Assembly: GCA_905372355.1 (NCBI GenBank)
Contig: CAJPOT010000009.1
Coordinates: 1 to 64,000 of the forward strand
Reading direction: 5' to 3'
Length of the DNA: 64,000 nt
Origin: an uncultured Selenomonas sp.
GTDB taxonomy: Bacteria > Bacillota > Negativicutes > Selenomonadales > Selenomonadaceae
Shown: in pieces, positions 4,709-25,809 of the stretch
How positions within the stretch are numbered: the first letter of the stretch is position 1
Layout of the letters: every line of letters begins with the position of its first letter
Notes under the pieces: generated by a model
Told to the model about the DNA's origin: nothing
Database searches by the model: none
Seen by the model: the letters and a program-made list of their open reading frames with translations, nothing else
Program-made: the position numbers and the translations under genes

Positions 4709-7700
4709 ATTGCAATCCACGCGCCCCGTGTGGGGCGCGACCTGTCAAACCCATAGCGATTTCGTCGAGCCAGGCATTTCAATCCACGCGCCCGCGTGGG
4801 GCGCGACAGTCGAGGCGGGGCGATGCAAGCTTGAGCTGACATTTCAATCCACGCGCCCGCGTAGGGCGCGACCAAACGCAGAAAAAGCACATATTGCACA
4901 AGGCGCAATTTCAATCCACGCGCCCGCGTAGGGCGCGACGTTTCACACCGTCAACTTTTTCCATCGCTTCCGTATTTCAATCCACGCGCCCGCGTAGGGC
5001 GCGACGATGGCAGAGTTCTATGCGGATTTCATCTCGAAATTTCAATCCACGCGCCCGCGTGGGGCGCGACGGCATCCGTGCGCCCGTCTCGTACATCCCC
5101 AGTATTTCAATCCACGCGCCCGCGTGGGGCGCGACGTTAGCCGAGAGTAGCACCTGCTTGGGTAGGTGATATTTCAATCCACGCGCCCGCGTGGGGCGCG
5201 ACCATAACCAACGTAGATCATACGTCTCAATTTTGCTATTTCAATCCACGCGCCCGCGTAGGGCGCGACGTACTGCAGGCGGCGCAGGAGGTCGACTGCC
5301 TCAATTTCAATCCACGCGCCCGCGTAGGGCGCGACTACAGGCGGTCAAAGTCAACGTGCGCGGCCTGCCATTTCAATCCACGCGCCCGCGTAGGGCGCGA
5401 CAAACACAGGTCTCCGTGCCGTTCGCGTTGCCGTTATTTCAATCCACGCGCCCGCGTAGGGCGCGACCCTGCGCGTCGATGGGCAGGTCGTCGAACCGCG
5501 CCATTTCAATCCACGCGCCCGCGTAGGGCGCGACGGCTGACCACCATCATGGTGGACGACGAGATGCATTTCAATCCACGCGCCCGCGTAGGGCGCGACA
5601 GTTATGCTGCTTAATGTAGCGTGGGATTCCACAATTTCAATCCACGCGCCCGCGTAGGGCGCGACTTTCCTTCATTGCTTTTAAGAGCGTTGCCGGCGTA
5701 TTTCAATCCACGCGCCCGCGTAGGGCGCGACTGCTTGAAAATCGTTGGCGGTATGGGTGATTCCAAATTTCAATCCACGCGCCCGCGTAGGGCGCGACGC
5801 AGCGCGACGGCATAGTAATCGCCAAGCTCCTTATTTCAATCCACGCGCCCGCGTGGGGCGCGACGCGACGATGATGCGCAGCGTTATGCTGTGACAGTAT
5901 TTCAATCCACGCGCCCGCGTGGGGCGCGACTCGCCGCATTGATCTGCTCCGCTTGCAGTGCGAGATTTCAATCCACGCGCCCGCGTGGGGCGCGACCTCT
6001 TTTTGGCGCTCTTCATCCTACATCATCCAAATTTCAATCCACGCGCCCGCGTGGGGCGCGACATAGGCAAGAGATTATTGCTGTCTAAGTGGTCGAATTT
6101 CAATCCACGCGCCCGCGTGGGGCGCGACTCAGGATCGTAGCCATAAGACATCAACTCGACAGCATTTCAATCCACGCGCCCGCGTGGGGCGCGACCATAT
6201 CCTCCCCTATCTCGGGCAAGCGGTTTTGCAATTTCAATCCACGCGCCCGCGTGGGGCGCGACTCTCCCATTTGTCTCCCAACCTTTTGCGGGAGACATTT
6301 CAATCCACGCGCCCGCGTGGGGCGCGACGAACCAACGGCGGCACGGCTCTTCACTCGACAGCATTTCAATCCACGCGCCCGCGTGGGGCGCGACGCTGGC
6401 AGTGCGCATCAATGCGGTTGGCAAAACATATTTCAATCCACGCGCCCGCGTGGGGCGCGACTGTTTTCCGACGGCTCCAACGTGGCCGTAAAAGATTTCA
6501 ATCCACGCGCCCGCGTGGGGCGCGACGGATGTTGGCGATCTTCTCTATATTATCAGATGATTTCAATCCACGCGCCCGCGTGGGGCGCGACGATATTCCG
6601 CCTCGCGCGCGTCAAAGATGTATGGATTTCAATCCACGCGCCCGCGTGGGGCGCGACACCCTCAATTCTCAGCTTATACTATATCACAGATCATTTCAAT
6701 CCACGCGCCCGCGTGGGGCGCGACGTGAAAAGCCTTTACAGACGCGTTTGATCTTCATTTCAATCCACGCGCCCGCGTGGGGCGCGACCCGACTTCCTTC
6801 GGGGCGCAAACTGTTTTATCCCATTTCAATCCACGCGCCCGCGTGGGGCGCGACTACATCAGGCTCGATGTCATCTACACGCTCAAGCCATTTCAATCCA
6901 CGCGCCCGCGTGGGGCGCGACCTGGTGCGCCCGTCTGCGTCGTGATGAACACCGAATTTCAATCCACGCGCCCGCGTGGGGCGCGACTTATAATACTTCT
7001 AAAAAGGAGGTGATTCAAATGATTTCAATCCACGCGCCCGCGTGGGGCGCGACGAGTGCCATTGTTTACTTCTCGCATACGTTATACATTTCAATCCACG
7101 CGCCCGCGTGGGGCGCGACCCGTGTCGAATCAGCTCCTTGACGATGCCGACGTATTTCAATCCACGCGCCCGCGTGGGGCGCGACAGCAGCCATTGACCT
7201 TGGGCGGCAGATCGGCAAGATTTCAATCCACGCGCCCGCGTGGGGCGCGACTCAAGCAAGAGGCAGCGCGGCTGGGGCTAGATGTATTTCAATCCACGCG
7301 CCCGCGTGGGGCGCGACTAAGGGGCACTGGGTTTTCACGGCGAGCCTACCGATTTCAATCCACGCGCCCGCGTGGGGCGCGACTGGTGCGGCGCTCAAGC
7401 TGGATCAAAACAAAAAATTTCAATCCACGCGCCCGCGTGGGGCGCGACATCGACAACGCGCTCCGGCGAACCGATCAATCCTATTTCAATCCACGCGCCC
7501 GCGTGGGGCGCGACTTCCTGCGGCTTCTTCTGTCGTGCCATCGGCAGATTTCAATCCACGCGCCCGCGTGGGGCGCGACGATAGACTTCCATATCGCCAT
7601 GCGCCCGTGCGAATTTCAATCCACGCGCCCGCGTGGGGCGCGACAGGCGTTCGCGGGCATCTGCCGACGGTCAGCGGCATTTCAATCCACGCGCCCGCGT

Positions 7701-8896
7701 GGGGCGCGACGAGCAGGCCGTTCGGCCGGTGGACAGGCGCAGACATTTCAATCCACGCGCCCGCGTGGGGCGCGACAACACTTTCATGACTTTCCTCCTT
7801 TTAGCCCCTTATTTCAATCCACGCGCCCGCGTGGGGCGCGACTTTATCATAACAAAAAAACTATGTCAATCATAATATTTCAATCCACGCGCCCGCGTGG
7901 GGCGCGACTTGATGCTCTTGCAAGATCTTTTTCTCCTTCTCATTTCAATCCACGCGCCCGCGTGGGGCGCGACAACTCTCCTTCCGCTCACCGAAGAGTA
8001 GTGCCCATTTCAATCCACGCGCCCGCGTGGGGCGCGACAGCGATACAAGCATAACCATACCTCCTCACGATTATTTCAATCCACGCGCCCGCGTGGGGCG
8101 CGACTGAGCTTCTTGCAGCTCGTCAAAGAGACGGGGCAATTTCAATCCACGCGCCCGCGTGGGGCGCGACCCCATCGCGTGACAAGGATATTGCCGATTA
8201 TCTCATTTCAATCCACGCGCCCGCGTGGGGCGCGACGCATACGGATGATGGGGACGCCGAGCTTCATGCAATTTCAATCCACGCGCCCGCGTGGGGCGCG
8301 ACGCAAACTCTTCTATCCCGAACCGAGTCTCAAGGAATTTCAATCCACGCGCCCGCGTGGGGCGCGACCGCCCTTTTTCGTCCTTTATTTCATAGGCACG
8401 GATATTTCAATCCACGCGCCCGCGTGGGGCGCGACTAAGGAACACGGTATATGCAAAAACTGCGGACAAATTTCAATCCACGCGCCCGCGTGGGGCGCGA
8501 CGATCGCAAAAGTGACCGTCGGCTATACCGCCGACGATTTCAATCCACGCGCCCGCGTGGGGCGCGACACGTGTCCAAATGGTTTCACCTCCTCTCAGCC
8601 TTATTTCAATCCACGCGCCCGCGTGGGGCGCGACCGCGACCGCAGAGGGTGTGGTATCTACCATGGCATTTCAATCCACGCGCCCGCGTGGGGCGCGACC
8701 CGAGAGCCTACCATCCTGCGTGTGCTCGTCGAGATTTCAATCCACGCGCCCGCGTGGGGCGCGACGCGAGGTCTGTGCCTCCTGCTGCCGCAAGCGCAAA
8801 TTTCAATCCACGCGCCCGCGTGGGGCGCGACGGGACGTACAGGAGTCTGGCGGCAAGTGCAGTCATTTCAATCCACGCGCCCGCGTGGGGCGCGAC
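4709..8896 (-). CRISPR. Type I-C CRISPR array, 64 repeats and 63 spacers
   Basis: The repeats are 32 bp and the spacers 32-35 bp, with a period near 66. In crRNA sense (minus strand) the repeat starts GTCGCGCCCC and ends GTGGATTGAAAT, the type I-C form. Its stem CGCGCCC/GGGCGCG has a 5-nt loop and leaves the 11-nt handle TGGATTGAAAT. Transcription runs from cas2 toward lower coordinates, so 8865-8896 is the newest repeat and 4709-4741 the oldest. The oldest repeat is degenerate but still folds (CGCGCCCC, loop GTGT, GGGGCGCG). Twelve repeats (starts 4841, 4908, 4974 and nine from 5238 to 5767) carry A instead of G at the plus-strand loop position; all others carry G. The reading frames through the array are artefacts. 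Confidence 0.98.
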
Positions 8897-9055: not shown

Positions 9056-9346
9056 CTACAGCATCAGAGTTCCTTCAGCTTCATAACTTGGTTTTGCACC
9101 GACGTGCTGCGTTTTTCCTGCGTATTTATTTCCCAAGTTATAAAAACGCAGGCTGTCTTTTTCTTGGTCAATCAAATTTGTCAACTCATGCCGCAGGGCG
9201 CAGAACTGTGCTTCATCGAGAACGCATTCAAACACGGAGTTCTGCACGCGTTGTCCGTGGCGCACGCAGCATTTCGCCACTTTTCTCAAGCGTGTGCGGC
9301 CGGCAGGTGTTTCCGTATTGACATCGTATGTCACGAGAATCAACAT
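9056..9346 (-). CDS. cas2: CRISPR-associated endoribonuclease Cas2
   Basis: A 96-residue protein starting MLILVTYDVNTETPAG, the typical Cas2 ferredoxin-like opening with the conserved Asp in YDV. The segment RLRKVAKCCVRHGQRVQNSVFEC and a C-terminal strand (LRFYNLG) complete the family pattern of type I-C Cas2. A longer in-frame extension upstream to 9523 is rejected because it runs into cas1 and a GATGGAGG Shine-Dalgarno precedes the ATG at 9346. Together with Cas1 it forms the spacer-integration complex. It is the last gene before the leader and array. Confidence 0.95.
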   Translation of the reverse strand: MLILVTYDVNTETPAGRTRLRKVAKCCVRHGQRVQNSVFECVLDEAQFCALRHELTNLIDQEKDSLRFYNLGNKYAGKTQHVGAKPSYEAEGTLML

Positions 9347-9375
9347 TGCCGCCGTCCCCCTCCATCTTTCCTCAC

Positions 9376-10407
9376 TTACTTCCACAGAAACGCCGGATAT
9401 TCCTCCAAGTCGCCGCGTAAATATCGTGCCAGCAGGAGGGATTGGGCATGAGGAACCAAGCCCCAAGGGAGTTTTTCCCTGAGAAACGGATGCGTAATCT
9501 GCTCCCGCTTCTTGTCCTGCCATTCCTTGAGGACGAGCTTACGCCCAGCATCATTGAGCCAGACGGCGCCGTTCTCTTTTTTCTCAAAATGCTCCGGCTT
9601 GATGATGCGATTGTTGATCAGCGTGAGTACGAGGCGATCGACAAAAAGACTTCGCAGCTCCTCCATGAGGTCGAGCGCCAAGGATTCCCTGCCCGGGCGA
9701 TCGCGGTGCAGGAAGCCGACATACGCATCAAGTCCCACGCCTTCCAGTGCAGAGGCGCAGTCATGCGCCAGCACGGTATACAGAAAAGACAGCATGGCAT
9801 TGACGCGATCGAGAGGCGGACGCTTGAGGCGGCCTTCCAGGGAAAATGCGTCCTTGTTCTGCAAAATGAATTGATTGAACAACGAGAAGTACAGATGTGC
9901 GGCATTTCCTTCAATACCGCGCATTTCATCAAGCGACTGCACTCGATGCAAGCTCTGCAGGCTGCTTTTGAGTTCCGCGCTCACTTGCGCAAGCGCCGTC
10001 AGATCCAAGCTCAGCGGATGGTCGCGCTTCATCCTTTCGACGAGTGTGCGCGTGTTGAAGATCTTTCCGAAAAGGAAATCCGCCGCGAGTTTCGCACTCT
10101 CCGCATCATCTTCCGAGCGGCGATACTGCTCCTTGCGCAGGAGCACATTGCTTCGCACTTCCCCACAGGAGCGGGCAAGAAATCGCCCGCGCGGACTAAA
10201 AAAGCAAAGCCCGATTTTCGCTTGGGCGCACGCGCCCATCAAGGCAGGACTCGCGCCCTTATAAGTAAAGCAAAGGATATTTTCCAAAGTGAGCAGCGGA
10301 ATCCGCCCCAGCACTTTTTCTTCCTGCAGTACGACGACATTCTCATTTTCCAAAGCCACATACGCATCTTCGGTCAAAATGAACAGGGTATTGAGCATAT
10401 GACGCAT
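9376..10407 (-). CDS. cas1: CRISPR-associated integrase Cas1
   Basis: A 343-residue Cas1 of the type I-C clade. The metal ligands are visible: Glu166 in RGIEGNAA, His234 in GLDAYVGFLH and Glu249/250 in LDLMEELR. The N-terminal beta domain (residues 1-80) is followed by the helical catalytic domain. It begins 3 nt after the cas4 stop, and AAGGGGG inside the cas4 end serves as the Shine-Dalgarno. It integrates new spacers at the leader end with Cas2, with Cas4 trimming prespacers and helping choose the PAM. Confidence 0.97.
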   Translation of the reverse strand: MRHMLNTLFILTEDAYVALENENVVVLQEEKVLGRIPLLTLENILCFTYKGASPALMGACAQAKIGLCFFSPRGRFLARSCGEVRSNVLLRKEQYRRSEDDAESAKLAADFLFGKIFNTRTLVERMKRDHPLSLDLTALAQVSAELKSSLQSLHRVQSLDEMRGIEGNAAHLYFSLFNQFILQNKDAFSLEGRLKRPPLDRVNAMLSFLYTVLAHDCASALEGVGLDAYVGFLHRDRPGRESLALDLMEELRSLFVDRLVLTLINNRIIKPEHFEKKENGAVWLNDAGRKLVLKEWQDKKREQITHPFLREKLPWGLVPHAQSLLLARYLRGDLEEYPAFLWK

Positions 10408-10410
10408 AGC

Positions 10411-11070
10411 TCACACCCCCTTCAAGGCAGCTGCATAATAGTCGGAAACGCCCACCGTTTTTTGCAGCTTCGGCAGACACAGGTCTTTCAGAGAACAGTT
10501 GCGGCATTTTTTCGTCACCTTGACCTTGGGTGTCGCCCTGCGGGAATATTCCTTGTGCATTTCAGCGAGCGTATGCAGAACGAACTCTCGCAAATCTTGC
10601 GTGATTTCCACCTTCTGCCGCCGATGGATTTCATCATAGAAAAGGTAACCGACAGGGATATGACAGCAAAGCATTTCCTCAAGGCAAAGCGCCTGCAGGA
10701 CGAGCTGTGAAACATCCTCCTCGCCGTCTTTCGGCTTGCCGCGCTTGTATTCAACGGGAACGGGACGCCAAAATCCTTCCTGCCCGTGCAGCCTCGCGCC
10801 TGTCTTTTCCCTATGAAATTCCACGACATCCGAGACGCCGCTCACGCCGAGCTTTGCCGAGAAAATGCGCAGGGCACGCGCCACGAGCAAATCCCCGCGC
10901 GATTCGTGCAGGCTGCCGTCATGACATTTCTCGTGGACAATCTGCCCCTCGACTGTGCGCAAGTTTTCCTGCCATTGCTGCTCGATGTGAATGAGTGCCC
11001 ACTGCCTGCGGCAAAAGAGGAAATGCTGGATGCCGGCGACATCCAGCCACTCCTCTTCGCGATATGCCAT
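10411..11070 (-). CDS. cas4: CRISPR-associated exonuclease Cas4
   Basis: A 219-residue Cas4 of the PD-(D/E)XK nuclease superfamily. The first Fe-S cysteine lies in HFLFCRRQW (about 19), and the other three form CRNCSLKDLC (about 189-198). The nuclease core shows the conserved VEYKRGKPK strand with the catalytic Glu and Lys. Its start overlaps the cas7 stop (TGATG). In type I-C it works with Cas1-Cas2 in prespacer processing and PAM selection. Confidence 0.96.
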   Translation of the reverse strand: MAYREEEWLDVAGIQHFLFCRRQWALIHIEQQWQENLRTVEGQIVHEKCHDGSLHESRGDLLVARALRIFSAKLGVSGVSDVVEFHREKTGARLHGQEGFWRPVPVEYKRGKPKDGEEDVSQLVLQALCLEEMLCCHIPVGYLFYDEIHRRQKVEITQDLREFVLHTLAEMHKEYSRRATPKVKVTKKCRNCSLKDLCLPKLQKTVGVSDYYAAALKGV

Positions 11071-11954
11071 CAGCTCATGCGCGTGCAGGTCACGCCTTCC
11101 GGTAGATCGGCTTCGTCAACGGTGACTTCATAGTCCTGATAGCTGCGTGCCGGCTCGTCTGCCGCCTTTTTCTTGACATGAATGCGCTCAAAAAGCTTGT
11201 AGGACGGCGCATTGCCAAGCTCACTCTCGTGGCGGAAGACGATGAGCTCGCGCGTCGCCATATTGCCGCGCGCCGCCGAGCGGTCAAGCTCAAACATGCG
11301 CAGGATCGCCTGCCACAAGAGCGCCAAGTCCTCTTCGGAGAAGCCCGTCGTCTTGCGCGCGAGGTTTGCCGAGACATAGCCTTCAACTTTGTAGAGCGCA
11401 TAGGGTACGATGAACTTGCGGCCGATTTCCGTCTTCTTCGTCTGCGCATCCTTGATCGTCGTGATCGCCGTGCGCGTGATGGTGATCTCCTGCGGCAGAA
11501 TGGGATCAATGCTGCGCGCAAAGCCGAGCTGCACGGGACCGCGCACCTGCCCGCAGTTCAGCGCTCCCTGCACGAAGGTCGTCATGACGGCGCCGAAGGT
11601 GCGGATATCGAAGAAATTGCTGCACATGAAGTCGCGAATCTTGCCGTCGATTGCAGGATCTGAGGCCTTGACCTTCTTGATGTCCTTGATGCCGAGGTGG
11701 TCACAGGCCTCTTGGTCGCTTTGAGCGAGCGGCACGTTTTCCTTGATGTAAATGCGATAGCCCGGCTTCCCTTCCTGCGCCGTTTCCACGTAGTTGCGAA
11801 TCTTCCGCTTGAGGCAAACGTCAGTGACCAGTCCGTGTCCGGTCTCTTGATCGACGCGTGGCATGTTGCCCGCATCGGGATCGCCGTTCGGATTGCCGTT
11901 TTCAACATCAAAAAGAATGACAAAATCATACCGATTTTTGATTGCTTCCGCCAT
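11070..11954 (-). CDS. cas7c: Cas7c (Csd2), Cascade backbone subunit
   Basis: A 294-residue RAMP-fold protein opening RYDFVILFDVENGNPNGDPDAGNMPR, the hallmark start of Csd2/Csh2 Cas7 proteins. Several copies polymerise along the crRNA spacer in the type I-C effector. The ATG follows the cas8c stop directly (TAAATG) with GGAGG upstream, and its stop overlaps cas4. The thumb-like element that sits between RNA segments forces every sixth crRNA base out of pairing in this family. That rule matters for the crRNA-like gene at 14577. Confidence 0.97.
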   Translation of the reverse strand: MAEAIKNRYDFVILFDVENGNPNGDPDAGNMPRVDQETGHGLVTDVCLKRKIRNYVETAQEGKPGYRIYIKENVPLAQSDQEACDHLGIKDIKKVKASDPAIDGKIRDFMCSNFFDIRTFGAVMTTFVQGALNCGQVRGPVQLGFARSIDPILPQEITITRTAITTIKDAQTKKTEIGRKFIVPYALYKVEGYVSANLARKTTGFSEEDLALLWQAILRMFELDRSAARGNMATRELIVFRHESELGNAPSYKLFERIHVKKKAADEPARSYQDYEVTVDEADLPEGVTCTRMS

Positions 11955-13694
11955 TTACTTTTCCTCCTTCTTTTCGTACCGCTTCTGCTTCTGATGATAG
12001 TAACCAAGGATGAATACACCCTGCTCCTCAAGCGGCAAATGACGCGGCATATCCTTGGCGTCCAGCTTTCCCATGATCTCCGACAACTTTTTGTCCAAAT
12101 AGACTCTGGGAGCCGTCTCCAACTTTTTCAAGTGATGAAGCGCGAGCTTCTGCAGCATCGGGAACACATGCGCCGGCGTTCCACAAGCAGAATCAAAGAA
12201 ACGGTCGCGAATCGTCGCCTTGATCTCAGGGTTCGCCTTCTCCTGCACCTCTTCCAAAACGGCGAACCAGCGTCCGAGCAAATAAGCAACATCGGTCGAG
12301 TTTTCATCTAATGCCACAGCGATCTTCCTCCCTCGATTTCGCATCAAATATGCTTTCAAAAAGCCGGCGCGCCTTGCATTGATTTTCCGCTCCCCCTGCT
12401 CTGCATGAATGCGCAGCAAAATGTTTTGGAATACGGACACGGGATACTTGCCGCCGGTCAAAACGGCTCGCAGCATGGCTCCTGCCATGATGGGAGAAGC
12501 CATCTTCACCTTGGCGTTGGGATTCACCGTTTCGCGCAGGAGCTCCCACAACGGCACATTGCCGCGCGTCTCCCAGCTCGGGCGGACAATCTTCATCTGC
12601 TCCATGTGCAGGGCGAGATTCTTCAAGAAATCCCCGAAAGAACCTTGTAGGAAGAAGCGTACAGAAAGCCGCGCCGCATTGGGCGCCAGACCCAGGATAT
12701 AGAAGGGATTGGCATAGGAGATTGCCACGCCCTCGTAGTCGATCGCCGCCCCTGCCTGCACCTTTTTCAGCACGGCATCCAGCAGATCATCGGTCATCTT
12801 ATCTTCATCGCCGAAAAGCATGCCGCAAAGCAAGTCTTGTGCCGCCTCGCTCTCCTCCTCGGCCCAATAGACCATCGTCGTGTCGCCTATGATCTTCGTA
12901 TGTTCGCGATCAGCAAGCAGGGTATTGAGCGCCGTGCCATAGGCAAACGCCGCCTTCTTCGACACGGGAGCATTGCCGCCCTGCTCGCCGTCGTGACCGT
13001 AGGATTCGTAGGCATTGGCATTGAAGGAGACGAGCATGGCTCCCGTTGCTTGGGCGCCCGTGACACCCTTGAGCGCCGGATGCTTGACGGCGATCGGCGC
13101 CAATGTGCCCGTCACGAGGCAGCGGCGTTTTTCCTTAGCGCCGCTCGCATCGAGATGCGTTTCCCAAGCCTCACGCACGGCCGGCTCTTCGTGCACGAAG
13201 GTGCTCGCCACACGGAATACGAGATTCGCCCCGGCAAGAATCTCATCGGCATAGGGCGCGAGGGCCGGATGCGTGCGCAGCATCGTTTCACCGCCCTGCC
13301 AGTGCCCGAAAAAAGCGATGACAGCGCGAGCAGCGTCCGACGCAGCACTGCCCAGAATCTCCTCGTGCAGAGCCTTCGCAGCCGAAAAGCATTCTGCCGT
13401 ACGCTTGGGCTTTCCTTTCATATCGGCGCCTAAAAAATACGATGAATTATCGCAAAGGAAAAACGGGGCTATGCCAACCGTTCTCGTTTCTCCTGCCGGA
13501 ACAATAAGTTCCTGCGGTCGATCCACTTCCTTCTTGCCGCGCAAAACCTTCTGGATGAGCGGCAATACTTGAAGCAATTCTCCTTCTTTGGAAAGCAAGA
13601 GCGCAAAGGAAACATTACGCTTCTCCCAACCATCTCTGGGCAACCGTCCCTCTTTGCACTCCGTCTCATATCTTTCAACCAGTGCTTGGAGCAT
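11955..13694 (-). CDS. cas8c: Cas8c (Csd1), large subunit of type I-C Cascade
   Basis: A 579-residue Csd1-family protein. An upstream TTG at 13712 is also in frame, but the ATG at 13694 has GAGGTG before it and overlaps the cas5 stop as TGATG, so it is preferred. The length and motifs near LVSFNANAYESYGH and YWAEEESEAAQDL fit Cas8c. In the minimal I-C system Cas8c recognises the PAM. Its C-terminal part, or an internal start within cas8c, supplies the small subunit Cas11c. I did not identify that internal start with confidence. Confidence 0.95.
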   Translation of the reverse strand: MLQALVERYETECKEGRLPRDGWEKRNVSFALLLSKEGELLQVLPLIQKVLRGKKEVDRPQELIVPAGETRTVGIAPFFLCDNSSYFLGADMKGKPKRTAECFSAAKALHEEILGSAASDAARAVIAFFGHWQGGETMLRTHPALAPYADEILAGANLVFRVASTFVHEEPAVREAWETHLDASGAKEKRRCLVTGTLAPIAVKHPALKGVTGAQATGAMLVSFNANAYESYGHDGEQGGNAPVSKKAAFAYGTALNTLLADREHTKIIGDTTMVYWAEEESEAAQDLLCGMLFGDEDKMTDDLLDAVLKKVQAGAAIDYEGVAISYANPFYILGLAPNAARLSVRFFLQGSFGDFLKNLALHMEQMKIVRPSWETRGNVPLWELLRETVNPNAKVKMASPIMAGAMLRAVLTGGKYPVSVFQNILLRIHAEQGERKINARRAGFLKAYLMRNRGRKIAVALDENSTDVAYLLGRWFAVLEEVQEKANPEIKATIRDRFFDSACGTPAHVFPMLQKLALHHLKKLETAPRVYLDKKLSEIMGKLDAKDMPRHLPLEEQGVFILGYYHQKQKRYEKKEEK

Positions 13695-14350
13695 CAGCGA
13701 TACACCTCGCAATCCCTAAGGTCGAGCACGCCGTCCACAAGCTGTGCTTGGAAAAACATCGGCTGAAGATTCTTGGGATCCGAGTAGTCGATATCATAGA
13801 GCATGAAACCCAGATCTTTCGTTTCCCCATTTGTCGGCGGAAGCTCCGCTTCCTCGTACAGCCGGAAGCGCGCGGGAAACTCACGGCAGCCCAGATACGG
13901 TGCATGATAGCACTGTCCCTTGCGCGCGCGTCGGCAGAACATCTCACGGAATTTCCCCTCGTTGTCCGATGCCGATGCCTTCTCCGTCATCTCGAAATGC
14001 GCTTCAATGATGTAATGCGGTTCCTTCAAGATGGTGGCGGCACGCTGCTGGATATCCTCCTTCGTGGACTGATAGAGTTCACCACGCTCTTTCTCCGCAA
14101 AAGCCTTCACCGTACGCGCAGGAATCTTTGCCTTGAGCTCATTGCGGCGGACATTGGTAAACTGAATTCCGGATAGGATAAATATCCTATCTATGCGCCA
14201 TTTTAGGCCCGGATGCCAAAACACGGCTTCCAAGACCCCCCTCGCCGCGCTCGGCGTCATGACGGCGTAGGAAAAGCGCTCCGCCTTCAATTCCGGTCGC
14301 GTGAAGCACGCCGCTTCGCCCCAAACCTCAAGGCGAACGCCATAGGCCAT
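13694..14350 (-). CDS. cas5c: Cas5c (Cas5d), pre-crRNA processing nuclease
   Basis: A 218-residue Cas5 of the I-C type, which replaces Cas6. It cuts the repeat at the base of its hairpin and stays on the 11-nt 5' handle. The MAYGVRLEVWGEAACFTRPE opening and the GQCYHAPYLGCREFPA segment (about 145-160) are characteristic. The Shine-Dalgarno GGAGGTG precedes ATG 14350. It is the first gene of the cas5-cas8-cas7-cas4-cas1-cas2 operon, each junction overlapping or nearly so. The only long gap in the locus lies upstream of it and carries a consensus promoter and a crRNA-like RNA gene. Confidence 0.96.
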   Translation of the reverse strand: MAYGVRLEVWGEAACFTRPELKAERFSYAVMTPSAARGVLEAVFWHPGLKWRIDRIFILSGIQFTNVRRNELKAKIPARTVKAFAEKERGELYQSTKEDIQQRAATILKEPHYIIEAHFEMTEKASASDNEGKFREMFCRRARKGQCYHAPYLGCREFPARFRLYEEAELPPTNGETKDLGFMLYDIDYSDPKNLQPMFFQAQLVDGVLDLRDCEVYR

Positions 14351-14370: not shown

Positions 14371-14407
14371 TTCTTTTGTTAGGAAATATTTAATTTGTAG
14401 AAAGCAT
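14371..14407 (+). promoter_or_regulatory. Predicted Cascade target site on the cas5 promoter (TTC PAM plus seed)
   Basis: TTC at 14371-14373 fits the established I-C PAM and is followed by TTTTGTTAGGA (14374-14384). This is identical to the first 11 bases of the spacer-like segment of the crRNA-like RNA at 14611. Base 12 mismatches and bases 13-16 (ATAT) match again; beyond that pairing is lost. A bound complex with a 34-nt footprint would cover 14371-14407, from the early transcribed region through the +1 site into the -10 box of the cas5 promoter. Confidence 0.7.
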
Positions 14408-14431
14408 ATCATAAAAAATTAACTCTGTCAA
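14403..14431 (-). promoter_or_regulatory. Promoter of the cas5-cas8c-cas7-cas4-cas1-cas2 operon
   Basis: On the minus strand a perfect TTGACA (14431-14426) is followed after 17 nt by TATGCT (14408-14403). This predicts transcription from about 14396, some 45 nt before the cas5 ATG. The spacer DNA is very AT-rich. The predicted Cascade site overlaps its -10 box and start point. Confidence 0.7.
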
Positions 14432-14542: not shown

Positions 14543-14570
14543 TTGACTTCTTGCAGATGCATGGTAAACT
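14543..14570 (+). promoter_or_regulatory. Promoter of the crRNA-like RNA, derived from a dispersed repeat
   Basis: TTGACT (14543-14548), a 16-nt spacer and TAAACT (14565-14570) predict a start near 14577. The stretch 14532-14572 aligns with the promoter-like end of the 108-bp repeat unit at 31501-31824. There GGCTTGACTTCTTG and CATGGTAA recur with the same spacing. The promoter therefore appears to have been recruited from the repeat family. Confidence 0.6.
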
Positions 14571-14576
14571 AACATC

Positions 14577-14670
14577 GTCGTGGAGATCATGTCTGCACGA
14601 GGATTGAAATTTTTGTTAGGACATATGATGCGCGAGTGCGGGGAGATTTTTCAGATCTCCCCGCTTTCGT
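14577..14670 (+). ncRNA. Solitary crRNA-like RNA (CreR-like cas autorepressor candidate)
   Basis: Bases 14577-14610 form a diverged CRISPR repeat. It begins GTCG, folds as TCGTG/CACGA plus an inner AGA/TCT stem around a short loop, and ends AGGATTGAAAT, which is the array handle TGGATTGAAAT with one change at its first base. The stem differs in sequence from the array repeat but keeps pairing. A spacer-like segment follows from 14611, about 27-34 nt. Its first 11 bases match the cas5 promoter region next to TTC (14371-14384). A 10-bp GC-rich hairpin (14638-14664) followed by TTTCGTCTGT ends the unit. There is no second repeat and no ORF. Family knowledge: short crRNA-like guides can direct Cascade to bind without cutting and repress cas or toxin genes (CreR, CreA). 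Assigning that role here is inference. Its own locus lacks a PAM. Confidence 0.78.
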
Positions 14671-14703: not shown

Positions 14704-16959
14704 CTACAGGAACATTCCTTCGCCCTCTCCAACATTACTCGACAGTCCCTTTTCTGAGTCATATACCGCCATATCAACAAGCACGGCGAGGTTTTCGTCG
14801 AGCATGCTGATCTTTCCCTGCGCGGCAAGCTGTTCGAACGGCGCTTCGGCATATCCCGTATAGACAGTCACGATGTAGCGTCCGACCTTTCGCATAAGCG
14901 AACGCGATCTCTCTCCTCGTTCCAGCCGCGCCAAGAGCGCCTGTCCCTCCTCGGTTTGCGGAATGAAGATCGGCTTGGTACGATCCTCGATCAGGCGGAC
15001 ATCGTTTGCAATATCGGCAAAGGCGAATTTTCCCGACTGCCCCATGATGTCTTTCTTGTCCAGACGATTCTTGCCGCTCAGATCGTACAGCTCTTCAAAG
15101 TAGCGGCGGATCGCTTCGGGACTTGCCAAGTCTTCGGCAAAACTCCGCGCCACATTCTTTGTGATTTCAGCTGCCAGCTGCGCATTTTTCGCCAGTTTTT
15201 CCAGAGAAAATACATGCACAACGCTTTCCTCCGCCGTCCTCCTGCCCTCGCGGTTGCAGCGGCCCGCCGCCTGCACGATGCTGTCGAGGCCGTTGATCTC
15301 ACGATAGACGCAGGGGAAGTCGAGGTCGACGCCGGCCTCCACGAGGCTCGTCGAAATGACGCGGCACGGCTTGCCATCCTTGAGCCGTGCGCGAATCTTC
15401 TCCAATACCTGCTCGCGATGCACAGGATAGAGATTCGTGGACAAGTGGTACGTTCCTTCGTCTTCCCGCAGCAAATCGAAGACACTCTGCGCCATCTTTT
15501 TCACATTGACGATGCAAAGCACCTGCTCATGAGCCGCCAGCTCTTCGGCAAGCTCCTCTTCCGTCATCACCTCTTCGCGCAGCTCGATCTTCGTGCGCCG
15601 GAAAAACGCTGCATTTTCCATGAGCGCCGGGCAGATTTCCAGCGGCTGCATATCATCGGAGAAAAACTGCCCCAAAGGCGGCTGCGTTGCCGTACAGAGC
15701 ACCGCCGTACACGCATAGTGCCGCACGAGCGCCTCGATTGCGGCAAGCGAAGGACGCAAGTAATCAATCGGAATCATCTGCGCCTCATCAAAGATCACGA
15801 TGCTCTCGGCAAGATTGTGCAGTTTGCGGCATTTCGACGGGTGATTGGAAAAAAGCGATTCGAAAAACTGCACGTTCGTCGTCACGATGACGGGCGCATC
15901 CCAGTTCTCCGTCGCCAGCCGCTTGCGATTCATATCCGTATCCTGCACATCGTCATAATCCACATTCTGATGATGCTCGACGACACTGTCCGGCCCCAGC
16001 AGATCCCGAAAGACAGCAGCATTCTGCTCGATGATCGACGTATACGGTATGACGTAGATGATGCGCCTGCGCTTCCTCTTGGCATGAGCGGCATAATGCA
16101 GGGCAAACGCCAGGGAAGAAATCGTCTTGCCTCCGCCCGTCGGTACGGTTAGCCGGTATAAATTCCCTTTTGCCTCTTTTCCTGCGTCGATGCTCTCGGC
16201 GAGGAGCGCAGAGCGTTTTTTGTTGATCGGCAATTCCAGCTTCCGCTTCTCTTTTTCCGTCTTCGGCTGCAAGAATTTCTCTTCAAGGCTCTCCTGCAGG
16301 CGTTCGAGCAAGGTTTCCACAGAAGCAAAACCTTCCCGTTCGACATTCCCCGCCGACATGAAGTCTTCCGTGTCGAGAAAGTCCGCATCGACGAGACAGG
16401 AGAAAAGCATGCGCGTATAGAGCATCGCGGAGAGCGGTGCGCGGGCGACCTGCTCCAACAAGAGCGACGGTGGCAAGGTCTGGGGCAGATCGGCCTCATG
16501 ATAAGCGCGGTAATCGGGCAGATTCCGTCGCTTGAGCCTGCCCAAAAGCGTGCCGTCTTCCGCTGTATTCGCCGTCGTACCCTGGTTCGGTATGCCGCCA
16601 TGATGCCCTGCGATGCAGAACGCCATCACCTGCGCCATGCCTCTGCCAAGCCTTCTGCTTTGCTCATCGTCCGCGCTCTGCCGCAGCCTCACGATCTCCT
16701 GCGTCCCCGCCGTCGAATGATCGATGCGCCCCCTGCGCCGTCTCTTCTCCTCCTCGTCCGCACGCAGATACGCTTGAAACTCGCGCGAATACTTGCCGAT
16801 ATCGTGATACAAGCCCAAGAGCCGCCCCATCGCCTCCTCGCCGAAAGCGACGGCAAAGCGCCCTGCAAGATCGGCAACGCCCGTCAGATGGTCGCACAAA
16901 AGCTGCTCACGCCCCGTTTCCTCATCAAGATGCCCAAGATAAGCAGAAGATTTTGTCAT
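14704..16959 (-). CDS. cas3: Cas3 nuclease-helicase
   Basis: A 751-residue fused Cas3. The HD nuclease comes first, with His24, His52-Asp53 in YHDIGKYS, His81 and a GHHGG pair at about 119-120. The SF2 helicase follows, with Walker A VPTGGGKT (about 272-279) and DEAQ at about 400. The ATG at 16959 is chosen over a TTG 15 nt upstream, because that TTG lies inside the GGAGGTG Shine-Dalgarno. Cas3 is recruited by target-bound Cascade to nick and degrade DNA. It begins 52 nt after the ADP-ribosylglycohydrolase gene with no promoter between them. It is separated from the rest of the operon by the 353-bp gap holding the crRNA-like RNA, so effector and nuclease may be controlled separately. Confidence 0.97.
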   Translation of the reverse strand: MTKSSAYLGHLDEETGREQLLCDHLTGVADLAGRFAVAFGEEAMGRLLGLYHDIGKYSREFQAYLRADEEEKRRRRGRIDHSTAGTQEIVRLRQSADDEQSRRLGRGMAQVMAFCIAGHHGGIPNQGTTANTAEDGTLLGRLKRRNLPDYRAYHEADLPQTLPPSLLLEQVARAPLSAMLYTRMLFSCLVDADFLDTEDFMSAGNVEREGFASVETLLERLQESLEEKFLQPKTEKEKRKLELPINKKRSALLAESIDAGKEAKGNLYRLTVPTGGGKTISSLAFALHYAAHAKRKRRRIIYVIPYTSIIEQNAAVFRDLLGPDSVVEHHQNVDYDDVQDTDMNRKRLATENWDAPVIVTTNVQFFESLFSNHPSKCRKLHNLAESIVIFDEAQMIPIDYLRPSLAAIEALVRHYACTAVLCTATQPPLGQFFSDDMQPLEICPALMENAAFFRRTKIELREEVMTEEELAEELAAHEQVLCIVNVKKMAQSVFDLLREDEGTYHLSTNLYPVHREQVLEKIRARLKDGKPCRVISTSLVEAGVDLDFPCVYREINGLDSIVQAAGRCNREGRRTAEESVVHVFSLEKLAKNAQLAAEITKNVARSFAEDLASPEAIRRYFEELYDLSGKNRLDKKDIMGQSGKFAFADIANDVRLIEDRTKPIFIPQTEEGQALLARLERGERSRSLMRKVGRYIVTVYTGYAEAPFEQLAAQGKISMLDENLAVLVDMAVYDSEKGLSSNVGEGEGMFL

Positions 16960-17011
16960 TTCAAACACCTCCAAGAAATCACCAGAAACTCATCGAGGCT
17001 GGAAGGTTGCA

Positions 17012-17890
17012 TCAACCTTCGCGCGCCATAACGGCTTCGTTTGCGAGATGGTCAAGGGTAGACCGAACATCCGACGAAATGCATGACACCCACCTTTGTG
17101 GAATTGCCTCAAAACCATAAACGCTCCCCGCCAATCCGCCGGTAATTGCTCCGATCGTGTCTGCGTCACCGCCTCGATTGACCGCTTCTACTACTGCATC
17201 CTCAAAAGTCCCTGTCAACATAATAGCATAAAGCGCATTTTCCATACTTGCTACTACCCACCCCGTTGGTTCTTTTCTCTCGCCATACCCTTGTACGATG
17301 CGGGTTATCTCTTGAATTGCTTGTTCCGGTGCTATCAGCGCCATTGACACGAGTCGCACATAATCCATGCAAAGAGCTGCGCTCGCCTCATTCGGATGCG
17401 TCATCCAGGCGATTGCTCTCGTAAATTCTGCTGCCACGTTTTCATCTTTGTAATAAAGTGCAGGGTATATCGTTCGCATCAATGCCCCATTTCCTGCCGC
17501 CCCCTCCTCATGGGGACGACGGACAGCTTCTCTCCAGACATCTTCCTCGCTATGACCTGTTTCGACGAGACGATCTGCCATAGCGATGGACATCCTGCAA
17601 GTGTTGCCTATATCTTTAGGATTGCTTTTATACCATTCACGGAATCGCCGTCCAATCGATACGATCGGCGACTTGGGACGCTCCACTATCCCCTCTGCCA
17701 CTGCAATAGTCATCTGCGTATCGTCAGTAATCTCGCCTGGCGCGACATTTAGCCATCCGCCCCCGACCATTTCGCACACAGCTTTTCCATATTTCTTTAG
17801 GATTTCTTCTGCCTCCATAAATTCAAGGGGCGCTCCCAAGGCATCTCCCACCGCCACACCATAAAGCGCTCCCCTAATCCTGTCCTTCAT
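17012..17890 (-). CDS. ADP-ribosylglycohydrolase (DraG/ARH family)
   Basis: A 292-residue all-helical hydrolase of the ARH/DraG family, which removes ADP-ribose from proteins, nucleic acids or small molecules using a binuclear Mg or Mn centre. The metal motifs are present: GDALGAP near residue 16, TDDTQM at about 56-61, NGALMR and the C-terminal NRGGDADTIGAITGGLAG. It directly precedes cas3 on the same strand with a 52-nt gap lacking a promoter, so the two may be cotranscribed. ARH proteins are not core I-C components. The placement may reflect phage-related ADP-ribosylation (inference) or chance. An AGGAGG Shine-Dalgarno supports the ATG at 17890. Confidence 0.92.
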   Translation of the reverse strand: MKDRIRGALYGVAVGDALGAPLEFMEAEEILKKYGKAVCEMVGGGWLNVAPGEITDDTQMTIAVAEGIVERPKSPIVSIGRRFREWYKSNPKDIGNTCRMSIAMADRLVETGHSEEDVWREAVRRPHEEGAAGNGALMRTIYPALYYKDENVAAEFTRAIAWMTHPNEASAALCMDYVRLVSMALIAPEQAIQEITRIVQGYGERKEPTGWVVASMENALYAIMLTGTFEDAVVEAVNRGGDADTIGAITGGLAGSVYGFEAIPQRWVSCISSDVRSTLDHLANEAVMAREG

Positions 17891-21412: not shown

Positions 21413-23383
21413 TCAAAGCCTGAACTTCGCCACCCCCTGCTGCAGCTGCTGCGCGAGATCTGCGAGCGTATGACTCGCGGCTGCGATCTCCTCGGCGGAC
21501 GCCGCCTGCTCCTCGGAGACGGCGGAAACGTCCGTCGCCTTCTGCTGCACGGCACGGGACAGGTCGCTTACCTTCTGCACCGTATCGACCGTGCTCTTGC
21601 AGTCCTTTTCGAGCGCTCCCGTGATCGTCCCGACCTTCGCGACCTGCCCAATCAGGGCACGGATGGATTCAGCGATCTTCGCAAACTTCTCGTCAGCTGC
21701 GCGGACTTCTTCCACGCTCTCTTTGACCTCTTCGTCCTGCGATTTCGTCAGCGTGAATGCGTTCTCGATCTGCGCGGAGTTCTTGCCGATGACCGCGCTG
21801 ATCTCCTGCGCCGCCTGCTCGCTCTGCTCGGCGAGCTTTCGCACCTCGTCGGCGACGACGGCGAAGCCCTTGCCCTGCTCGCCCGCACGCGCCGCCTCGA
21901 TCGCGGCATTCAAGGCGAGGAGTTTCGTCTGTCCCGAAATGTTCGTGATGACCTCGTTGATCTCCGCGATGTTCTTCGAGCCGTCGTAGAGGTTCTGCAC
22001 AGCCTCGCCGACCTTTACGGAGTTCGCCGCGAGGCTGTCGACGCCCGCGACCGCCTTTTCCAGCACAGCGCGGCCTTCGCGCGTCGCCTCAGCCGTCGTC
22101 TCAGCAACCTTCGTCGATTCACCGACCACCTTGGCGATGTCCTCGGTCTGCGCTCCCATATTGTGCGCGACTTCGTTCGCCATCTCCGCAATATCGCTCT
22201 GCTCCGCCGCGCGCTCGGCGATGTCGACAACGGCTTCTGCCGCCGACTGCGACGCATTCGCCGTCTGCGTCGAGCTTGCTGTCAACTCCTCAGAGGACGC
22301 GAGCACCTGCTCGCTGGCCTTCGAGGTGTCCTCGACCATCTTTCGGAGCGTCGTGACCATCTGACTCGAGCTCGTCTGCAGCACTCCGATCTCGTCGACG
22401 CGATCGCTCGCGGGCAATTTGTGCGTAAGATCCCCCTTGGCGATGAAACTCATCGTCTCGGACAGGATCTCGATCGGCGAAATCATGCCCGTGAGGAAAT
22501 AGTAGGTGATGCCGCCCAAAAGCGCGAGAGCAACGAGGCTGATGACAAGAATCGCATAGAGCATCTGCGTCGCCGATGCGAACGCCTCCGACTGCGGCAC
22601 CTCGATGATGATGTGCCAGCCCGTCGTGCCGATCGGCATCGATTCATAGAACTTCTGCACGCCGTTGAACTCCGCCTCGAACATCTGCGGATCCTTTGAT
22701 GTGAAGCGCGCTGCCAGATCCTTGTACTTGCCGCCATCCATCTCGTTGAGCCGCGGGTCGTCGAGCGTGAATTTCTTGTGGTAGATGAATTCGCTGTCCG
22801 GTCCCAGGACGAAGAGCGAGCCATGCTCGCCGACCTTCACATCCTTCAAAATCTCCGTCATACTATCGACGGAAGCATCCATGCCAATGACAGCGACAAG
22901 CTCGCCGTTCTTATTGTAGACCGCCTTGCTCAGCGTTATGACCCGCGTTTTGTCAGGGTCGGTCTGATAGACCTCAGAAAGCTCCACATTCTTCGAGTTT
23001 ACTGCATTCTTGTACCACGGACGCGTGCGCGGATCGAAACCTTCCGACGCCTGATCCTTCACCACGGACGAACCGTCGGGAAATCCCACGTAGAATTCAA
23101 AGACGCCGGGACGTGCCGAGATGTCAAGAACCGCCTGCTGCAGATCGTCCCCCTGCGGCAAACCGACGCTCCAATCCCGGGCGATGGTCTCCACCATCGC
23201 GCGCTTTTCCTGCACGCTGCCGTCAAGCTCCGCCGCATAACGGCCCGCGCGCTGCTCCATGCCGACTTCCACCGCGCTTTTCAACCCCGAGCTTGCCATC
23301 AGATAGATGATCGTTCCCATGAGGATGAAGATGACGATGAGCGGAATGCCGATGCTCAAAAGCATCTTCGGTTTGAGTTTCAT
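21413..23383 (-). CDS. Methyl-accepting chemotaxis protein 1
   Basis: A 656-residue chemoreceptor. The start MKLKPKMLL at 23383 is chosen over an ORF start 27 nt upstream because GGGAGGAG precedes it. TM1 spans residues about 8-32, then a periplasmic double-Cache domain ([33 protein letters not shown]), TM2 near 275-300, HAMP, and the cytoplasmic signalling hairpin with [20 protein letters not shown]. The FDPRTRPWY segment is typical of dCache ligand pockets for amines or amino acids, but the ligand is unknown. It is the first of three tandem paralogues; its C-terminal 130 codons are virtually identical in DNA to those of the other two. Confidence 0.95.
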
Positions 23384-23474
23384 TTCGTGCTCCTCCCTGT
23401 GTTCTTCCAAAACTTGTAACCTACATGCTTCTCTTCTACTCCATTTTCAAATATCCTGCAAAGATTCCTGATAT

Positions 23475-23761
23475 TTAAGGAACCGCTGATAAAAGGAAGT
23501 CGCCCAGATTTGCGCAGATGCGCTGTATCTATAGCGGTCAACGTCAGCCAATCATGCGACGCGCTTCGCGCTTGCATTCTTGGGACGTTTTCGCATACGA
23601 GCCGTTGCCCAATCGCCTGCGTCCTTCGGACTTGGCTCTTGGACGGCTCAGCAAGGAGACAAACCGGAGGCGTAGCGGTGCTACGTCGAGGATTTGTCGA
23701 CGACGAGAGGACAGCGCAGATGCGTGAAGATGGGTGGCTGAATTTATCAATGGTTCCTTAA
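23475..23761. mobile_element. MITE-like element with 19-bp terminal inverted repeats
   Basis: The 287-bp element begins TTAAGGAACCGCTGATAAA and ends with the complement of TTAAGGAACCATTGATAAA. It lies between chemoreceptor genes 1 and 2 and has no credible ORF. Inside it are a copy of a second dispersed motif (GTATGCGAAAACGTCCC in reverse, near 23585-23605) and a copy of the TTCGG/CTTGG core (about 23606-23640). A 74-bp internally deleted relative sits at 62211-62284. Confidence 0.65.
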
Positions 23762-23766
23762 CCCCA

Positions 23767-23807
23767 AGAGGTCTAGCCGAAGGTGCAGACCCATCGGCTA
23801 GACCTCT
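23767..23807 (-). terminator. Terminator after chemoreceptor 2
   Basis: The perfect 14-bp stem AGAGGTCTAGCCGA/TCGGCTAGACCTCT lies 35 nt downstream of the chemoreceptor 2 stop on the minus strand. The trailing T run is weak. Confidence 0.6.
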
Positions 23808-23841
23808 GTAAATCATGCGGATGTATGTACCGCGTCTTTTT

Positions 23842-25809
23842 TCAAAGGCGGAACTTCGCCACTCCCTGCTTGAGCTGCTGCGCAAGCTCGGAGAGCGTGT
23901 GGCTCGCGGCCGCAATCTCCTCGGCAGACGCCGCCTGCTCCTCGGAGACGGCGGACACGTCCGTCGCCTTCTGCTGCACGGCATGGGACAGGTCGCTGAC
24001 CTTCTGTACCGTGTCAACCGTGCTCTTGCAGTCCTTTTCGAGCGCTCCCGTGATCGTCCCGACCTTCGCGACCTGCCCAATCAGGGCACGGATGGATTCA
24101 GCGATCTTCGCAAACTTCTCGTCAGCTGCGCGGACTTCTTCCACGCTCTCTTTGACCTCTTCGTCCTGCGATTTCGTCAGCGTGAATGCGTTCTCGATCT
24201 GCGCGGAGTTCTTGCCGATGACCGCGCTGATCTCCTGCGCCGCCTGCTCGCTCTGCTCGGCGAGCTTTCGCACCTCGTCGGCGACGACGGCGAAGCCCTT
24301 GCCCTGCTCGCCCGCACGCGCCGCCTCGATCGCGGCATTCAAGGCGAGGAGTTTCGTCTGTCCCGAAATGTTCGTGATGACCTCGTTGATCTCCGCGATG
24401 TTCTTCGAGCCGTCGTAGAGGTGCTGCACGGCTGTGCCGACCTTCACGGCACCTTCCGCAAGATTCTCGACGCCTGCAACTGCTTTTTGGAGCGCCTCGC
24501 GGCCTTCTCTCGTCGCCTTTCCCGTCTCGTCTGCGACCTTTGTCGAGGCATCGACGACTTTGGCGATGTCCCGCGTCTGCTCACCCATGTTGTGCGCGAC
24601 CTCGTTCGCCATCTCCACGATATCGTTCTGCTCTGCCGCGCGCTCGGCGATATCGACGACGGCTTCCGCCGCAGCCTGCGACGCATTTGCCGTCTGCGTC
24701 GAACTTGCCGTCAATGTCTCGGAGGATGCAAGCACTTGTTCGGCCGCCTTCACTGTGTCTTCGACCATTTTGCGCAGCGTCGCGAGCATCGCGCTCGAGC
24801 TGTTCTGCAGCACGCCGACCTCGTCGACGCGTTCGCTCGTGGGAAGCTTGTGCGTGAGATCTCCCTTGGAGATGAAGCCCATCGACTCAGACAAAATCTC
24901 GATGGGCGAAATCATGCCCGTGAGGAAGTAATACGTGATGCCGCCGAGAAGCGCAAGCGCCGCGAGGCTGATGCCAAGGATTGCATACGACATGCGCGTC
25001 GCCGCCGCAAACGCTTCAGAGAACGGCATCTCGATGACAATGTGCCAACCCGTCGTCCCGATCGGCTCAGAACGATAGAACTTCTTGACGCCTTGAAATT
25101 CCGCTTCGAAGGACTGCGCTTCATCGGATGTGAAGCGTGCCGCAAGATCCTTGTACTTGCCGCCGTCGAGCTCATTGAGCGGCGGATCTTCAAGCGTGAA
25201 TTTCTTGTGATAAACATACTCGCTGTTCGGTCCCAAGACGAAGAGCGATCCCGTTTCGCCGACCTTGACGCCTTTAAGGAACTCCGTAATCTGATCGACC
25301 GCGAGATTCATGCCGATGACCCCGATGAGTTCGCCGTTTCTTCGCACGGCGCGGCTCAGCGTCACGACATTCGTATGATCCGACGCCGTCGGATAGACAG
25401 GGGAAATCTCCACCTTGTCGGAGGCCGCCGCATTCTTGTACCAGTCGCGCGTGCGCGGATCGTAACCCGCAGGAAGCGACTGACTCGCCGCATAGGAGCC
25501 ATCGGGTTTGCCAATATAGAACGACTGGACGCCCGGTCTGCTGCCCAGATGTGACACAACGTCCTGCAGCGCCTCGCCTTCGGGCATATTGTCTGCCCAG
25601 CTCATGGCGATTGCTTCCAGCGTCTCGCTTTTTCCCAACAAATTTCCATCGATGATCGCCGCATTGTGGCCGGAGCGCTCGGTCATGGCGATGAGTCGGC
25701 TCGTCCTGAGACCGTCACTCGCCAACAGATAGATGATGACGCCCATGACGGCAAACACGATGATCAAGGGCACGCCGATGCTCAAGAGCATCTTCGGTTT
25801 CAACTTCAT
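23842..25809 (-). CDS. Methyl-accepting chemotaxis protein 2
   Basis: A 655-residue paralogue of the flanking chemoreceptors with the same order: TM1, double-Cache sensor ([24 protein letters not shown]), TM2, HAMP and methyl-accepting hairpin. Its sensor domain differs clearly from the others, which suggests a different ligand, while the signalling tip ([16 protein letters not shown]) is identical. The middle signalling region ([28 protein letters not shown]) is its own version. No adjacent che genes are present, so it must feed a chemosensory array encoded elsewhere. Confidence 0.95.

Follow-up and report, generated by a model that had tools for sequence, protein, structure and literature searches.

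Stand-alone CRISPR repeats whose spacers partly match cas promoters, called mini-arrays, were reportedly described in type I systems by Shmakov et al. in 2023 (NAR). Closest to the element presented here are the CreR RNAs, among which a two-repeat mini-CRISPR form is common. A CreR is a crRNA-like RNA encoded in a cas locus, with limited complementarity to a cas promoter (PMC12737573, accessible text), and such cas-regulating RNAs have been reported for subtypes I-B, I-E, and V-A (PMC13131331, accessible text). In subtype I-B, CreA acts through a TTC and the pairing of bases 1-5 and 7-11, as demonstrated by mutation, and the creA of H. hispanica has one degenerated repeat that ends in a terminator; the accessible part of the same report describes one-repeat guides as less abundant than two-repeat ones (PMC8501985). 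In subtype I-C, Cas5 processes the crRNA, and the prophage-encoded inhibitor RacrIC1 carries a solitary I-C repeat on one transcript with acrIC5 (PMC10651486, accessible text). In Xanthomonas, TTC is found at the 5' end of I-C targets (PMC8406640, accessible text).

We analyzed a window of 64,000 nucleotides (the whole stretch of Selenomonas DNA studied here) and found a predicted solitary-repeat RNA gene in the gap between cas3 and cas5 of its type I-C locus. We consider it very likely that this single-repeat crRNA-like RNA loads into Cascade and represses its own cas5-cas2 operon, forming a feedback loop. Judged by its sequence, the element is a well-supported candidate for a CreR-type regulatory guide RNA in subtype I-C, and its seed shows unusually clear natural covariation. 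Like CreR, it lies in a cas locus apart from the array, has a repeat-derived handle, and its guide partly matches a predicted cas promoter next to a PAM (TTC, 10/10 seed bases, and bases 13-16). It differs in its subtype and in having one repeat plus a terminator, and its autorepression is a prediction. It resembles the mini-arrays of Shmakov et al. in combining a stand-alone repeat with a guide that partly matches a cas promoter.

The two-repeat mini-CRISPR arrangement was not seen for this element and is not taken as required, since a one-repeat creA exists (PMC8501985, accessible text); the lower abundance of one-repeat guides in I-B was counted against the autorepression reading. With CreA of the I-B CreTA system, our element shares the TTC PAM, the seed of bases 1-5 and 7-11, and one degenerated repeat with a terminator (PMC8501985, accessible text), whereas CreA targets a toxin promoter and the window guide a predicted cas5 promoter. 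With RacrIC1 it shares the solitary I-C repeat; the accessible text on RacrIC1 reports no guide-target logic (PMC10651486), and our element sits in the cas locus, on a single 2.6-Mb contig in the congeners G001 and G002, rather than on a phage or plasmid. No report of a CreR in I-C was found in the literature searched, which did not cover the Shmakov 2023 mini-array survey. The novelty is smaller than the initial annotation implied, because CreR-type autorepression has been reported in other subtypes.

A full set of type I-C genes lies on the - strand of the window, in the order cas3, a 353-nt gap, cas5c-cas8c-cas7-cas4-cas1-cas2, and the array, whose repeat reads GTCGCGCCCCACGCGGGCGCGTGGATTGAAAT along cas transcription:

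14704..16974, - strand: cas3 (TIGR01587/TIGR01596), upstream; convergent with the RNA gene
13694..14350, - strand: cas5c (TIGR01876), first gene of the operon presumed repressed
9056..13712, - strand: remainder of the operon, cas8c, cas7, cas4, cas1, and cas2 (TIGR01863, TIGR02589, TIGR00372, TIGR03640, TIGR01573)
4776..8896, - strand: main CRISPR array with 62 spacers and 63 repeats, of which 51 are identical and 12 carry one change

Within cas5c, the window differs at about 14150-14235 from both congeners, whose sequences are alike in that stretch, and the remainder of the gene is nearly identical; a local replacement in the window is possible. Directly upstream of cas3 and on its strand, an ADP-ribosylglycohydrolase-like gene occupies 17012-17890 (best NCBIfam match TIGR02662, below the cut-off). 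Farther away, at 21413-25809, two tandem chemoreceptor-like genes have a common 300-nt stretch that is 93% identical, which suggests a recent duplication or gene conversion.

The RNA gene itself consists of the following parts:

14543..14570, + strand: predicted promoter of the RNA gene (TTGACT-16-TAAACT, 9/12 of the consensus, TG before the -10 box)
14577..14610, + strand: solitary diverged CRISPR repeat (hairpin and handle), GTCGTGGAGATCATGTCTGCACGAGGATTGAAAT
14600..14610, + strand: 11-nt handle, AGGATTGAAAT, 10/11 of the array handle TGGATTGAAAT
14611..14637, + strand: guide, with bases 1-11 and 13-16 identical to the promoter site
14638..14667, + strand: predicted intrinsic terminator of the RNA gene (12-bp hairpin at 14638-14664 and a short T tail)

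Folded in silico, the solitary repeat forms a stem of 5 bp plus 4 bp, whose letters differ from those of the array repeat and of G002 with the pairing intact. No second repeat was seen beside it in the window, where the terminator stands instead, and an Rfam search returned four matches, all far below the gathering scores. Two features were counted against the autorepression reading: the single mismatch between the solitary and the array handle is at the first base, where it may affect Cas5c, and in the fold of the full RNA the handle and the seed are partly paired, which could hinder loading.

The proposed target lies at the other end of the gap:

14371..14373, + strand: TTC PAM of the target, adjoining the seed match
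14374..14389, + strand: partial protospacer where the cas5-cas2 operon is predicted to start (sequence match at 15 of 16 bases)
14403..14431, - strand: predicted cas5-cas2 promoter (TTGACA at 14431-14426, 17 nt, TATGCT at 14408-14403; 10/12 of the consensus, TG-extended)

The start of the guide at 14611-14621, TTTTGTTAGGA, is repeated at 14374-14384, directly after the TTC; base 12 is mismatched, bases 13-16 match, and base 17 is mismatched. Since the best promoter-like site for cas5 within the gap is the one at 14431-14403 on the - strand, the pairing would fall just downstream of the likely transcription start, and a 34-nt footprint counted from the PAM would extend to the -10 box. The initial annotation had described a diverged repeat at 14577-14610 with 10 of the 11 handle bases, a stem that differs from the array repeat and still pairs, a promoter and terminator of its own, and the return of the 11 bases after the handle at 14374-14384 behind TTC (base 12 mismatched, 13-16 matched), in the start region of the cas5-cas2 promoter. 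All of these descriptions agree with what we found, with promoter and terminator standing as a promoter-like site and a terminator-like hairpin.

Chance is a poor account of the match. Taking the seed as guide positions 1-5 and 7-11 (10 bases), dinucleotide shuffling of the 353-nt gap gave TTC plus a 10/10 seed in 0 of 20,000 shuffles and 9/10 in 18, the 64-kb window has one match against 0.01 expected, and none of the 62 array spacers exceeded 7/10 against the gap. Genome-wide, the TTC plus seed string occurs once in G001, and once in its own version in G002, both times at this site.

Covariation in the family points the same way. G001 is 98% identical to the window over the compared stretch; near the target, G002 reaches only 74% identity. 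In that genome, guide and TTC site before cas5 are again the same (guide TTGTGTTTGGT, target TTGTGTTTGGT): guide positions 3, 8, and 11 have changed relative to the window, and the target has the identical three changes. All of positions 12-15 are mismatched in G002, which therefore lacks the 13-16 match of the window, and this was counted against the autorepression reading. In another genus of the family (G037), the pair is TTATGGTTGCT and TTATGTTTGCT, which differ within positions 1-11 only at position 6 and match poorly in the 13-17 block as well, likewise counted against this reading. Two further loci (L096 and L039) share one guide and one target between them. The covariation of seed and target in relatives, proposed by the initial annotation as a test, was observed in G002, G037, and other Selenomonadaceae loci, where both had changed together; the independent drift that it named as refuting did not occur. 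Maintenance of pairing in evolution, as expected of a CreR RNA, holds for the seed and less so for the 13-17 block.

More widely, we scanned the regions upstream of cas5 for 102 loci, made up of the window, 80 named contigs, and 21 further loci; 98 of them had at least 300 nt. The 80 contigs came from 98 relatives, the other 18 not being kept. Also left out were L102-L110, with partial or weak matches; seven of these nine genomes later returned with fuller Cas5 matches. Candidates were picked by the handle alone, which had to be exact, outside long arrays, and at most 1600 nt upstream of cas5; the counts omit the regions shorter than 300 nt (L015, L053, L062, L071) and the array loci L003 and L005. 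The 44 exact handles, from 42 loci, had TTC plus a 10/10 seed in 28 cases, 9/10 in 8, and 8 or fewer in 8, the last group being counted against the autorepression reading. When guides were swapped between loci, none of 4016 combinations reached 10/10 and 24 reached 9/10. Replacing TTC by other trinucleotides gave at most one match each among the 44 handles, with AAT and AAC set aside, whose matches were taken as the handle matching itself. Shifting the guide start by one base gave no match, and other steps gave 0 or 1.

The 28 unique 10/10 pairs contain 25 distinct seeds. Pairs were found in Selenomonadaceae, Lachnospiraceae, Oscillospiraceae, two Gastranaerophilales MAGs, Pseudovibrio, and one Rhodobacteraceae MAG; the pattern recurs across I-C loci of several families and phyla. 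L057 and L058 carry a second handle close by, forming a mini-array, and therefore not every module is of the one-repeat kind. Rescanning 16 pairless loci under looser rules added only L047, with TTT as PAM.

In that locus, the match lies about 93 nt upstream of cas5 and covers 15/15 bases of the three blocks (1-5, 7-11, and 13-17), with TTT for TTC. In L005, a spacer of the true array finds TTC plus a 10/10 seed far off within its own locus (about 4.1 kb upstream of cas5); we read it as chance or self-targeting, a reminder that single matches can arise in other ways. Candidates near -600 in L020 and L063 were discarded, having handles with two mismatches and a guide that matched itself, as was L133 (one handle mismatch, ATC); L082, with one handle mismatch and a 9/10 seed, was scored as none. 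On plasmids, 54 records had a match, and among the ten I-C loci examined a Tistrella locus (L143) had a 9/10 pair and nine had no pair. The plasmid I-C locus of N. vulgaris DP4 has a cas3-cas5 gap of 13 nt with no handle in it.

In Cascade, every sixth guide base is flipped out. Positions 6 and 12 onward played no part in the selection of pairs, and across the 28 unique 10/10 pairs guide and target agreed at position 6 in 7 and at position 12 in 4, at positions 13-17 in 20, 24, 21, 26, and 16, at position 18 in 8, and at later positions in 2-11. With agreement dropping at 6, 12, and from 18 on, the match is organized in blocks of five bases and weakens around base 17. This bears out the appeal of the initial annotation to a TTC PAM and an every-sixth-base logic: TTC is favored, and agreement is at background for 6, 12, and 18 onward. 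Related pairs were joined in a minimum spanning tree of 32 edges, and changes on both sides with the match kept were compared with all other changes; the seed had 58 kept double changes against 10 others, all one-sided. The corresponding counts were 0 against 41 for positions 6 and 12, 9 against 173 for positions 18-24, and 21 against 51 for positions 13-17, the last counted against the autorepression reading. The seed counts of the tree are conditioned, the pairs having been chosen by their seed match, and the swap control tests the point more cleanly.

An ordinary antisense small RNA, pairing with the leader of the cas5 mRNA and using its repeat-like 5' part only as a stabilizing hairpin, would explain the complementarity between the window guide and the predicted 5' leader of that mRNA. 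The orientation of the guides is mixed, however, and differs from family to family: 23 of 36 unique pairs have a guide in the sense of the cas transcript, unable to pair with the mRNA, which argues for DNA targeting. The need for TTC, the drops in agreement at positions 6, 12, and 18, and a handle that is that of the array also speak against an antisense RNA, and we regard it as improbable.

The anatomy of the module is conserved as well. We compared 40 unique pairs, the wider set being extended by L006, L039/L096, and L046 (one handle mismatch) and by L047 (TTT). A stem of at least 4 pairs next to the handle was present in 29 of 40 (194 of 1000 random windows), and a terminator-like hairpin in 23 of 40 (88 of 1000). 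The 29 stem-bearing pairs have 16 different stems, as counted from the printout, and in each of the 29 a -10-like box precedes the stem by 6-13 nt, a figure that stands without a shuffle control. The protospacer overlaps the best promoter-like site in 11 of the 12 unique pairs with the orientation of the window, and in only 22 of 40 overall, the latter counted against the autorepression reading.

For its placement we used 132 loci, the 102 above plus 30 class-level loci; 8 could not be classed. The class-level search had matched 70 genomes, from which 30 places were taken as loci, and then 20 more. Of the 36 loci whose gap before cas5 measured at least 100 nt, 28 carried the module (8 had no pair under the rule used), as did 14 of 18 with an ORF of 130-170 codons before cas5 (4 had no pair); it was found in none of 70 where a long ORF ends less than 100 nt before cas5. 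The pairless loci of the first two classes were counted against the autorepression reading. This short-gap absence concerns the region next to cas5: L063 and L036 each have a 10/10 pair about 3.8 kb ahead of cas5; the one in L063 lies beyond a long cas3-like ORF, and L036 was scored as none in the 132-locus count. In L031, a 10/10 pair lies 3.1 kb upstream of cas5. A further search matched 107 genomes, of which 30 loci were taken, and a second occurrence of G001 was excluded from the fresh count. Fresh loci with a gap above 200 nt carried the module in 4 of 4 (L152, L193, L196, L200) under a looser rule that allowed one handle mismatch and a 9/10 seed, and in 1 of 4 under the strict rule; it was found in 0 of 4 at measured gaps of 100-160 nt and in 0 of 40 below 100 nt, and one contig was too short. 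The module therefore goes with room for a separate cas5 promoter.

Several Lachnospiraceae I-C loci have the module upstream of a DUF3990 gene and cas5. At L024:5292-6183 and L045:3407-4343, two ORFs lie between module and cas5, the first being DUF3990 (PF13151), which we take to be related to ADP-ribosyltransferases, and the second (147-148 aa) having no Pfam match. By eye, the same first gene is found in six of 14 loci viewed (L009, L024, L027, L033, L042, L045). Given their position, the DUF3990 gene and the 147-148-aa ORF may share the control of the module.

These genes bring up a CreTA-like addiction antitoxin, whose guide would silence a toxin and not the cas genes. Its anatomy would be that of the one-repeat creA (PMC8501985, accessible text), and the module does occur in 14 of the 18 loci with a 130-170-codon ORF, with DUF3990 as the preceding gene in the two tested, L024 and L045. 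In the window, the PAM is about 20 nt ahead of cas5, with no room for an intervening gene, and we find this explanation marginally less plausible even than an antisense RNA. A Racr-like decoy repeat, left by a phage and tying up Cas proteins with an irrelevant guide, is very improbable. The repeat is solitary and of the matching type, and a type I-C Racr is known (PMC10651486, accessible text), but a decoy would need no covariation between seed and target; moreover, the element lies in the cas locus across many genera, and a scan of a phage collection for one exact pattern, this handle with this seed, returned 0 viral contigs. A relic of a second, decayed array whose match arose by chance would fit a solitary repeat diverged from the array repeat, and has a negligible probability in view of the shuffles (0/20,000), the swaps (0/4016), the conserved stem and terminator, and the covariation.

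The reading of the RNA as a cas autorepressor, put forward by the initial annotation, is therefore supported at the sequence level, while expression, Cascade loading, and repression are inferred. A promoter-like site, a repeat hairpin, a handle, a guide, and a terminator-like hairpin are seen in the sequence, as is the match of TTC plus bases 1-5 and 7-11 at the predicted cas5 start region, which covaries in relatives and in the window extends by bases 13-16. Cas5c is predicted to cut at the handle, and the RNA to assemble into Cascade. By analogy with CreA and CreR, the resulting R-loop would be too short for Cas3 cleavage and would block RNA polymerase at the cas5 promoter. Repression would ease with falling Cascade levels and, as the CreR analogy predicts (PMC12737573, accessible text), under competition from array crRNAs or once an anti-CRISPR occupies Cascade.

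The covarying pairs are a natural data set in which the kept guide bases (1-5, 7-11, and more loosely 13-17) are visible without experiment. They tie the module to the cas3-cas5 gap, and indicate which base swaps would be decisive. Should repression be confirmed, genome tools based on I-C would gain a built-in control point, and induction of the cas genes would be expected from anti-CRISPRs that act on I-C Cascade. A tentative and rather doubtful generalization is that a Cascade-guided thermostat of this kind is a general feature of I-C loci that have a separate cas5 promoter, and that in several Lachnospiraceae it also gates the DUF3990 gene. If DUF3990 is toxic, Cascade failure would release it along with the cas genes. 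Should both the thermostat and the DUF3990 reading be true, a phage factor that disables the I-C Cascade would raise the Cas proteins and a putative toxin together.
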